In this document: piece by piece, positions 23,845-25,982 of the stretch
How the letters are laid out: each line of letters begins with the position of its first letter
Position numbering within the stretch: position 1 is the first letter of the stretch
NCBI GenBank assembly: GCA_947624395.1
Contig: CANQKA010000016.1
Location: 1 to 33,200, forward strand
DNA: 33,200 bases
Source: an uncultured Oscillospiraceae bacterium
Lineage (GTDB): Bacteria; Bacillota; Clostridia; Oscillospirales; Oscillospiraceae
Direction of reading: 5' to 3'
Program-made: the position numbers and the translations under genes
Notes under the pieces: generated by a model
Told to the model about the DNA's origin: nothing
Seen by the model: only the letters and a program-made list of their open reading frames with translations
The model's database searches: none

Positions 23845-24612
23845 ATGCCCATGACCCACGAAGAAAAGCGGAGCTTCCTCATCGAAAGGCTGCTGGCTGA
23901 GCAGCCCCAATACCGGCCCACGTCAATCCCCACCGACGAGGGGTCGCAAAAGCGGCTTCTCCGCTCGCTGATGAACGTCCGGCCCCCAAAGCCCATGGAC
24001 GAGGACTTTCTCACGGTCCAGGACGAATACCTGCGGGAGGCCGCCGCCCGCAAGCATATCACGGACGCGGCCGATCTGGCGCCCCTGGAACCGGGCGTCT
24101 GCCTCTGGCAGGGGGACATCACCGCCCTCCGCTGCGGCGCCATCGTGAACGCCGCCAATTCCGGCCTGACCGGCTGCTATGTGCCCTGCCACAACTGCAT
24201 CGACAACTGCATCCACACCTACGCCGGTATCCGTCTGCGCCTTGCCTGCGCCGAACTCATGGAGCGGCAGGGCCACGCCGAACCAACCGGCCAGGCCAAG
24301 CTCACCCCGGCTTACGCCCTGCCCTGCCAATACGTGCTCCACACCGTGGGCCCCATCGTGGACGGCCCGCTCACGGACCGCCACAAACAGGAGCTTGCGT
24401 CCTGTTACCGCTCCTGTCTGGCCCTGGCCCAGGAGCATCATGTGGACAGCGTGGCCTTTTGCTGCATCTCCACCGGCGTGTTCGGCTTTCCAAAGCCGGA
24501 GGCTGCCCGCATCGCCGTGGACGCCGTGCGCCGGTACAAAAACGACACGAAGGTGATATTCAATGTGCACAACCAGACCGACTATGCCCTCTACCGCCAG
24601 CTTCTTGGATAG
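23845..24612 (+). CDS. Zinc-type macrodomain ADP-ribosyl hydrolase
   Basis: The 255-residue protein has an N-terminal helical extension (about 1-75), then a macrodomain. The ADP-ribose site shows CLWQGDITALRCGAIVNAAN followed by SGLTGCY, and the loop CCISTGVFGFPKPEAA near 210-225. The special feature is C115-H116-N117-C118-x3-C122-x-H124 (YVPCHNCIDNCIH), which marks the zinc-containing macrodomain class found beside SirTM sirtuins in staphylococci and streptococci. That class removes ADP-ribose from proteins. The gene overlaps the sirtuin gene by 50 bases, so the two are translationally coupled: one adds, the other removes. The start has GGGAGG upstream. Transcription may read through from ireB. 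Confidence 0.92.
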   Translation: MPMTHEEKRSFLIERLLAEQPQYRPTSIPTDEGSQKRLLRSLMNVRPPKPMDEDFLTVQDEYLREAAARKHITDAADLAPLEPGVCLWQGDITALRCGAIVNAANSGLTGCYVPCHNCIDNCIHTYAGIRLRLACAELMERQGHAEPTGQAKLTPAYALPCQYVLHTVGPIVDGPLTDRHKQELASCYRSCLALAQEHHVDSVAFCCISTGVFGFPKPEAARIAVDAVRRYKNDTKVIFNVHNQTDYALYRQLLG

Positions 24613-25429
24613 CATCGCCCGCCTGCGCCGCGCCCTGGACGAGGCGCAGGCCGTGCTGATTGGCGCGGGCTCCGGCCTGTCCACCGCGGCGGGGTTTATA
24701 TACACCGGCGACCGGTTCGAGCAGTACTTCTCCGACTTTGCCGCCAAATACGGCTTCCGGGACATGTACTCCGGCGGCTTTTACCCCTTTGCCGCGCCGG
24801 AGGAATTCTGGGCCTATTGGAGCCGGTACATCTTCATCAACCGGTACATGGACCCGCCCAAGCCGGTGTACGAGACCCTTTACGCCCTGGTGCGGGACAA
24901 GGACTATTTCGTCCTGACCACCAACGTGGACCACTGCTTCCAGAAAGCGGGCTTTGACAAGCGGCGGCTTTTCTACACACAAGGCGACTACGGCCTTTTC
25001 CAGTGCTCCCAGCCCTGCTGCCAGGAGACCTTTGACAACGAGGCCACCATCCGCCAGATGATGGCCCAGCAGCGAAACATGCGCGTGCCCACGGCCCTTC
25101 TGCCCACGTGCCCCCACTGCGGCAAGCCCCTGACCATGAACCTGCGCTCGGACGACAGGTTCGTGCAGGACGCGGGCTGGGACGCCGCCGCGGCGCGCTA
25201 CGAAAACTTTCTGCGCACCCACTTGGGCAAAAAGACGCTCTATTTTGAGCTGGGCGTGGGCTGCAACACCCCCGGCATCATCAAATACCCCTTCTGGCGC
25301 ATGACGGCGCAGGACCCCCAAGCCGTGTACGCCTGCGTGAACCGCAGCCACGCAAACTGCCCGGCGAATATCGCTGGGCAGAGCGTGTGCATCAACGCCG
25401 ATATCGGGCGGGTCCTGGCCGCGCTTTGA
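24563..25429 (+). CDS. Class M sirtuin (SirTM), protein ADP-ribosyltransferase
   Basis: The 288-residue protein has the sirtuin NAD-binding start GAGSGLSTAAGF at 34-45 and TTNVDHCF around N121. Instead of the catalytic histidine of deacetylase sirtuins it has Q140 in TQGDYG, and R195 follows in MNLRSDD. From memory these correspond to N118, Q137 and R192 described for Streptococcus pyogenes SirTM; all three are offset by exactly three. C-x4-C and CPHC motifs between them probably hold zinc. SirTM modifies the lipoylated carrier GcvH-L in pathogens; neither GcvH-L nor its lipoate ligase is in this window. The start at 24563 has AAGGTG upstream; an ATG at 24584 is the alternative. Confidence 0.92.
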   Translation: MCTTRPTMPSTASFLDSIARLRRALDEAQAVLIGAGSGLSTAAGFIYTGDRFEQYFSDFAAKYGFRDMYSGGFYPFAAPEEFWAYWSRYIFINRYMDPPKPVYETLYALVRDKDYFVLTTNVDHCFQKAGFDKRRLFYTQGDYGLFQCSQPCCQETFDNEATIRQMMAQQRNMRVPTALLPTCPHCGKPLTMNLRSDDRFVQDAGWDAAAARYENFLRTHLGKKTLYFELGVGCNTPGIIKYPFWRMTAQDPQAVYACVNRSHANCPANIAGQSVCINADIGRVLAAL

Positions 25430-25465: not shown

Positions 25466-25510
25466 TGTCCCCCAGTCAGCGCCCTTGGCGCTGACTGAGG
25501 GAGAGATATT
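25466..25510. repeat. Palindromic repeat remnant after the peptide genes
   Basis: The hairpin GTCAGCGCC/GGCGCTGAC is flanked by CCCCCA on the left and by the B tail TGAGGGAGAGATATT on the right. The left flank looks like an inverted A/B tail, so the copy reads similarly on both strands. It overlaps the last bases of the peptide B gene and could end that transcript. Confidence 0.6.
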
Positions 25511-25676
25511 ACGGCTTCAAATTCCCATCCACGACCAACTGTCCATTTACCTGGTCCTTGGTCTCATTCGCATCCAGCGATTCGTAGTGAAATTGCGGCT
25601 GCACCCAGTTCAATCCCCCGGAGACGGCTTCCAGTTCGCTCTCGTCCAGCGCGGCAGTCTTCTTTTCCTCGTTCAT
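25509..25676 (-). CDS. Small peptide B with double-glycine leader motif
   Basis: This 55-residue gene starts at ATG 25676 with GAGGAG about nine bases upstream. The N-terminal 21 residues (MNEEKKTAALDESELEAVSGG, split here as MNEEKKTAA plus LDESELEAVSGG) fit the leader of peptides exported and cut by C39-type transporters: an L-S/E-x-x-E-L-x-x-V-x-G-G pattern. The 34-residue core is acidic and has one Trp and one Tyr (NWVQPQFHYESL near its start) and no cysteine. Its ATG overlaps the stop of peptide A (ATGA, 25673-25676), so the two are coupled. No transporter or modifying enzyme is adjacent. It may be a bacteriocin-like or signalling peptide; that is inference from the leader only. Confidence 0.62.
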   Translation of the reverse strand: MNEEKKTAALDESELEAVSGGLNWVQPQFHYESLDANETKDQVNGQLVVDGNLKP

Positions 25677-25863
25677 GGCTGCTGCTCCTCATCCACGCCG
25701 AATTCCTTCTTTACCAAGTCCCAGGCCTTGTCTGCCCACGTTTTCGACTTGATGTCCTGTCCCTTCTCTTCCCAGGAGTTCGTCGTCCCGCCGGTCACAT
25801 CGTTCAGGGCGGCGTCACTTAGTTCTGGGGTTACCCCCCGTGGATTTTTTGCTTTTCGTTCAT
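25673..25863 (-). pseudogene. Small peptide A with double-glycine leader, frame broken at a G6 run
   Basis: The ATG at 25863 has a strong AAGGAGG upstream and a promoter, but its frame stops after ten codons (MNEKQKIHGG, TAA at 25831-25833). One extra G in the G6 run just before this stop would join it to the open frame below. That frame reads VTPELSDAALNDVTGG, a classic double-glycine leader end, then a 37-residue core with three Trp residues and many Lys and Glu (NSWEEKGQDIKSKTW). The joined product would be 63 residues. Both peptides begin with MNE(E/K) followed by a short basic stretch, so they look like related leaders. The break may be a mutation, slippage at the G6 (an A6 is nearby), or a sequencing error. 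Confidence 0.55.
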
Positions 25864-25898
25864 CGTGGTTCCTCCTTGTGGTAATATCTTACGCTATC

Positions 25899-25927
25899 AT
25901 ACTACCGGAACGCCCCGCGTCCGTCAA
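25899..25927 (-). promoter_or_regulatory. Promoter of the GG-leader peptide pair
   Basis: On the minus strand TTGACG (25922-25927) and TAGTAT (25899-25904) are exactly 17 bases apart, 36 bases before the peptide A start. TATGAT overlaps the -10 as an alternative. Confidence 0.65.
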
Positions 25928-25982
25928 CATTTTTGTCCCGAATTGACAAAATCCCGACCCGAATTGCATCTTAACGCGGCGT

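Follow-up and report, generated by a model that had tools for sequence, protein, structure and literature searches.

Double-glycine (GG) leader peptide genes with homopolymer runs near their 5′ ends are known from the nap island of Neisseria gonorrhoeae (PMC11798529). There napR has a poly-G run of 6–12 residues, the commonest allele of which loses the GG leader, and napC is mostly OFF, with a C39 peptidase encoded in the same island; phase-variable GG peptides are therefore not new in principle. For the pili of Bifidobacterium breve, replication slippage at an intragenic G-tract has been demonstrated by deep sequencing (PMC9187656). Among the open-licence papers listed there was the Neisseria work and no report of phase-variable GG peptides from Firmicutes, which is weak evidence of absence. 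Here we analyse a pair of small genes in a 33,200-nt stretch (the window) of an uncultured Oscillospiraceae genome (GCA_947624395.1, contig CANQKA010000016.1), together with related genes in its genus. We think it probable, from comparison of assembled sequences, that these are poly-G contingency loci at which slipped-strand phase variation acts on exported GG peptides, and that the window holds an OFF copy.

Layout of the gene pair

Both genes lie on the minus strand. Gene B (25509..25676) encodes a 55-residue GG-leader precursor, and its double-glycine leader, MNEEKKTAALDESELEAVSGG, stands in an open frame, followed by an acidic core. Gene A had been taken for a second such gene because it was read across a run of G residues. 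Its ATG at 25863 in fact opens a frame of 10 codons, MNEKQKIHGG* (25831..25863), that terminates at a G6 run (25834..25839), the proposed switch on the basis of sequence and of the pattern and census comparisons below. The run separates this start frame from the frame of the gene A leader, VTPELSDAALNDVTGG, and core, TTNSW...EQQP* (25673..25834). The pair is thus real and gene B open, but gene A is not a single reading frame, as its ALNDVTGG leader and core sit in another frame past the run. An alternative start in the leader frame was ruled out, there being no plausible start codon ahead of the leader at this locus (L002). Gene A is OFF in the window assembly.

The overlap, the promoter and the gene A ribosome binding site proposed for the pair were recovered. 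The stop of A and the start of B overlap as ATGA, the ribosome binding site AAGGAGG (25871..25877) places AGGAGG directly ahead of the gene A start, and the promoter-like sequence TTGACG-17-TAGTAT (25899..25927, minus strand) is a single match at 25927-25899, against a mean of 0.2 in shuffled sequence. Short genes of this type are plausibly overlooked by annotation.

Poly-G peptide genes in related genomes

Homologous A and B genes are present in sister species, the gene B homologue in one relative (G009) being 78% identical. Searches with gene B at E 0.001 gave matches in 5 of 60 genomes, its own included, and an alignment-based search at E 0.1 in 14 of 35 genomes of the genus. Copies are concentrated in six genomes, with 36 matches in G014, 32 in G034, 28 in G009, 24 in G027, 19 in G031 and 6 in the window assembly (G000). 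The same six copy-rich genomes, of the 35, carry the pattern of a ribosome binding site, start codon, short N-terminus and at least six G, while its reversed version occurs in none of the 35; together with the A and B homologues of sister species, this indicates more than chance. At the level of the order, 394 genomes were sampled: the start-plus-G-run pattern matched the window's own and was absent from the 393 others.

In the loci retrieved from these six genomes, which rather than entire genomes are what the run census covers, 28 GG-peptide genes have a run of G6–G12 between start and leader. The first census of 30 rows lost four that were leaderless (L131, L160 and L175, the last twice) and gained two genes; the recount, again of 30 rows, contained two second start codons of genes already counted, leaving 28. 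Of a contig set of 71 stretches, 19 were rabbit MAGs with the GG-peptide family, the remaining 52 being swept by script only. None of 21 stretches from an IMG/VR scan was kept by the census script, the only check applied to them.

Run length sets the frame of the conserved product in these genes, 11 being in frame and 17 out, with ten in one wrong frame and seven in the other, a distribution to be expected from switching but not from a single fixed frameshift. Sorted by core, the in-frame genes are two of 15 A-type (Trp-containing) and nine of 12 Cys-rich; the one gene outside these classes is out of frame. The excess of A-type copies out of frame (13/15 versus 3/12, Fisher P 0.002) refers to classes picked post hoc and to non-independent copies. 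We count the mostly OFF state of A-type copies against switching; random thirds would give two or fewer of 15 in frame with P ∼0.08. An open leader frame to the stop in all 26 genes of the core-type comparison follows from the way they were picked, and we give it no weight. The A-type stop overlaps the next ATG by 4 nt in 13 of 14 genes, and a GG-leader partner is missing beside 3 of 14.

In Cys-rich GG peptides, runs of 9–10 G were also seen right at the GG cleavage site (L097 5856, 6091; L099 4791, 5012, 5223, minus strand), three of the five genes reading through to 66–73 residues and two ending at 25–26, which makes this another type of run position within the GG-peptide family. Further runs of 9–10 G were noted in two settings: shortly ahead of a gene for a LytTR-type regulator, and close to the 3′ end of one for a membrane protein of 475–477 residues, which lies upstream of a gene encoding a Sel1-like repeat protein (L298 2761, L299 2539, minus strand; L300 3137, L301 3533).

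Run length and selection in close relatives

Close relatives can differ in run length: of six ortholog pairs whose downstream DNA is at least 96% identical, two have unequal runs and hence unequal frames, and four have runs of equal length. The differing pairs have 9 versus 10 G and 9 versus 7 G, their downstream DNA being 99.5% and 97.5% identical, respectively. Two paralogs within G009 have runs of 7 (out of frame) and 8 (in frame), and no gap occurs downstream of the run in any of the 11 gene pairs with more than 80% identity. Against this we set the 4.8-kb block around the 9 versus 10 pair, in which the run is just one of 26 gaps. Codon bias does not easily explain the G runs, since in 14 genes of the window 24% of glycines are encoded by GGG. 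Genome-wide, neither the window assembly nor G009 has a run of nine G, whereas such runs occur in 27 of the 35 genus genomes; their lack in these two is either a species trait or an assembly effect.

In 14 A-type copies, the final 14 codons of the leader give a pN roughly half of pS (0.20 and 0.43), and almost the same values are obtained from OFF A-type copies only (pN 0.19, pS 0.41). Cys-rich leaders are less constrained (pS 0.31, pN 0.26). Neither in four A-type core pairs (pS 0.094, pN 0.087) nor in four Cys-rich core pairs (pS 0.008, pN 0.027) could we detect purifying selection, and gene B of the window differs from that of G009 in 17 of 54 codons, 12 of them nonsynonymous. The preliminary description had made its reading depend on conserved frames and on unequal rates of synonymous and nonsynonymous change: frames and leaders are indeed kept in relatives, but in the cores nonsynonymous change is at least as fast as synonymous, a result that, for this part of its own test, speaks against the pair being conserved. 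Sequence comparison thus points to conserved frames and leaders, with cores that appear to change freely or under diversifying selection.

Class IIb two-peptide bacteriocins are made from two intact adjacent precursors with cationic cores that contain GxxxG, and have a linked immunity gene. The suggestion that the present pair is one of these is not supported: gene A is out of frame, the cores of A and B each have a net charge of −3 and lack GxxxG in the window, GG-leader partners are missing beside some A-type genes as noted above, and no immunity gene was recognised in the open reading frame lists or among the few Pfam-scanned neighbours. Every A-type core examined, 14 in all, has a negative net charge, from −1 to −5. 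Among relatives, GxxxG is present in two A cores and three partner cores, of 14 each. As to function, antagonism fits the fast-evolving cores and signalling fits acidic short peptides.

Candidate export system

Gene B, and the gene A leader in its own frame, have the features of GG-peptide precursors, being short with a conserved hydrophobic leader ending in GG. None of the peptides submitted exceeded the cut-off of a Pfam or NCBIfam model, leader models included, and the assignment as NHLP/Nif11 precursors found no support, as no nitrile-hydratase- or Nif11-like leader model matched them. The preliminary description found no C39 transporter or immunity gene nearby, and none is recognisable in the window's open reading frame lists or the few neighbours scanned; the check it proposed elsewhere in the genome did however locate a C39 transporter. 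The genome's single C39 domain belongs to an NHLM_micro_ABC1 protein (952 bits against a cut-off of 853) encoded on contig C8, not the contig of the pair, and followed by NHLM_micro_ABC2 (724 bits, cut-off 709). A short HlyD-like gene precedes these two (37 bits, below the cut-off of 156), and three GG-leader peptides are encoded directly behind them (L089 12475-13099).

NHLM ABC1 exceeds its cut-off in 13 of the 35 genus genomes, and at least 8 of the 13 loci have a GG hit within ∼5 kb. At E 0.1, 11 of the 13 ABC1 genomes have GG hits versus 3 of 22 others (P 5e-5), and at E 0.001, 8 of 13 versus 3 of 22 (P 0.007), both values being uncorrected for kinship and incompleteness. Counted against our overall reading is G009, with its 28 GG matches yet no NHLM ABC1 over the cut-off, in an assembly that is 78% complete. 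Leaders conserved in relatives, and an NHLM-type C39 exporter with adjoining GG peptides in the same genome, support the view that the pair encodes predicted exported GG peptides.

Upstream element and genomic surroundings

Ahead of the promoter lies an element of two direct repeats spaced 21 nt, ATTCGGG-N14-ATTCGGGACAA (25933..25964, minus strand), with one match in the window and none in 100 shuffles. In the genus, the repeat pair (ATTCRGG twice, 21 nt apart) was located at 17 sites, spread over 7 of 35 genomes, and its reversed control at none. Eleven of the 17 precede GG-peptide genes, while the other six precede genes for an OPT transporter, a secreted protein of 373 residues and four related secreted proteins of 469–473 residues, whose first 160 residues have no Pfam match. 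The company of GG peptides, OPT transporter and secreted proteins makes it likely that nutrient- or signal-controlled transcription acts on top of the frame switch; LytTR genes, present in 6 of 6 genomes, are candidate regulators only. The OPT transporter is an oligopeptide transporter. In G014 (C2) and G034 (C8) the element stands ahead of a GG peptide, behind which comes a gene for an M15 D-Ala-D-Ala dipeptidase.

A dispersed repeat with the core GACAGCCCCC occurs at ten places in the window (5274-33148) and also flanks GG loci of relatives, and a GG pair in G009 (C15) matches the window over ∼370 nt, without the neighbouring genes, which hints at mobility. A macro-domain gene (Pfam match) followed by a 288-residue gene without a Pfam match occupies 23845-25429; the latter looks Sir2-like.

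Proposed phase variation and its alternatives

What we observed directly comprises the run, the frames, the conserved leaders, the transporter genes and the unequal run lengths of orthologs; on this basis we propose the following. The pair would be part of one family, at the level of the genus, of small GG precursors, of which many have poly-G between start and leader, and gain or loss of G during replication in living populations would shift leader and core into or out of the start frame. Translation in OFF cells would end after ∼10 codons, and that of gene B may fall too through coupling, as the two genes overlap where A stops and B starts. Precursors made in ON cells would be cut after GG and probably exported by the unlinked NHLM-type C39 ABC transporter. 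As start and leader are kept in different frames, and both wrong frames and in-frame copies are found among relatives, slippage at the G run is the simplest account, drawn from one metagenome-type assembly per species.

Similar arrangements could arise if RNA polymerase or ribosomes slip on the run, so that DNA of OFF length, itself unchanged, yields some full-length precursor. OFF copies do keep their downstream frames and leaders, and G9–G12 runs followed by CCCC could form a small hairpin (predicted by folding three copies, without controls), but a single programmed frameshift was rejected because both wrong frames occur, so that slippage in both directions would be needed, and 11 of the 28 genes require no shift at all; we regard such recoding as unlikely. 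Homopolymer errors of sequencing or assembly, the other less likely explanation, must be considered as the data all come from metagenome-type assemblies and two of these have no nine-G run. Frame nevertheless tracks run length consistently among several genomes, and the unequal share of out-of-frame copies in A-type and Cys-rich genes, post hoc as those classes are, is unlike random error, making this reading very improbable.

Decay bears on the window copy itself. A pseudogene or locked-off gene A beside a working gene B and other working members, in a family that may still phase-vary, is a real alternative there, if one to which we give a small share of our belief. The run is just six G in an assembly without any run of nine, which we count against switching of this copy, most A-type genes are out of frame, some have lost their GG partner, and core pN is near pS; gene A of the window may thus be locked off. 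Yet it retains start, ribosome binding site, leader, stop overlap and open core, leader constraint persists in OFF copies, and the G009 copy with similar flanks is in frame. Slipped-strand phase variation of the family remains our preferred reading.

Comparison with known systems

A broader proposal, which we hold tentatively, is a 'peptide phasome' in a gut lineage, with tens of dispersed GG peptide genes per genome, many independently switched by poly-G, one shared unlinked NHLM exporter and, for some, a common upstream control element. If so, cells of one clone would secrete differing sets of fast-evolving peptides, as weapons or signals, offering a clear test of why clones randomise secreted peptides, and homopolymer phase variation of exported GG peptides, known from one small island in Neisseria, would be extended to a large repertoire in gut Oscillospiraceae. 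OFF alleles would be lost by gene finders and bacteriocin miners because start and leader are in different frames. The window alone holds a smaller lesson, of one intact peptide gene and one out of frame.

Like class II/IIb bacteriocins and ComC-type GG peptides, the pair has a short GG leader of LxxxELxxVxGG type and adjacent overlapping genes, but the peptides submitted fall below all Pfam and NCBIfam cut-offs, and differ in their acidic cores and in having no recognised immunity gene. NHLP/NHLM export (TIGR03796/TIGR03797) is matched by the genome's own ABC1 and ABC2, both above curated cut-offs and with GG peptides adjoining, and departs from the present case in that our peptides match no NHLP/Nif11 leader model and the HlyD-like gene is short and below its cut-off. 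The B. breve switch shares intragenic G-tract slippage in a Gram-positive gut commensal, here inferred from assemblies, but governs pili, whereas the present runs sit in genes for predicted exported peptides. The closest precedent is the nap island, alike in the 5′-proximal homopolymer runs of its GG-leader peptide genes. There, however, one island holds three peptide genes and napR, and its peptides are cationic and from another phylum, whereas the present family has dozens of dispersed copies encoding acidic or Cys-rich peptides, with an unlinked transporter. The present case is set apart from known systems by its lineage, its unlinked exporter and a repertoire of this size and spread.
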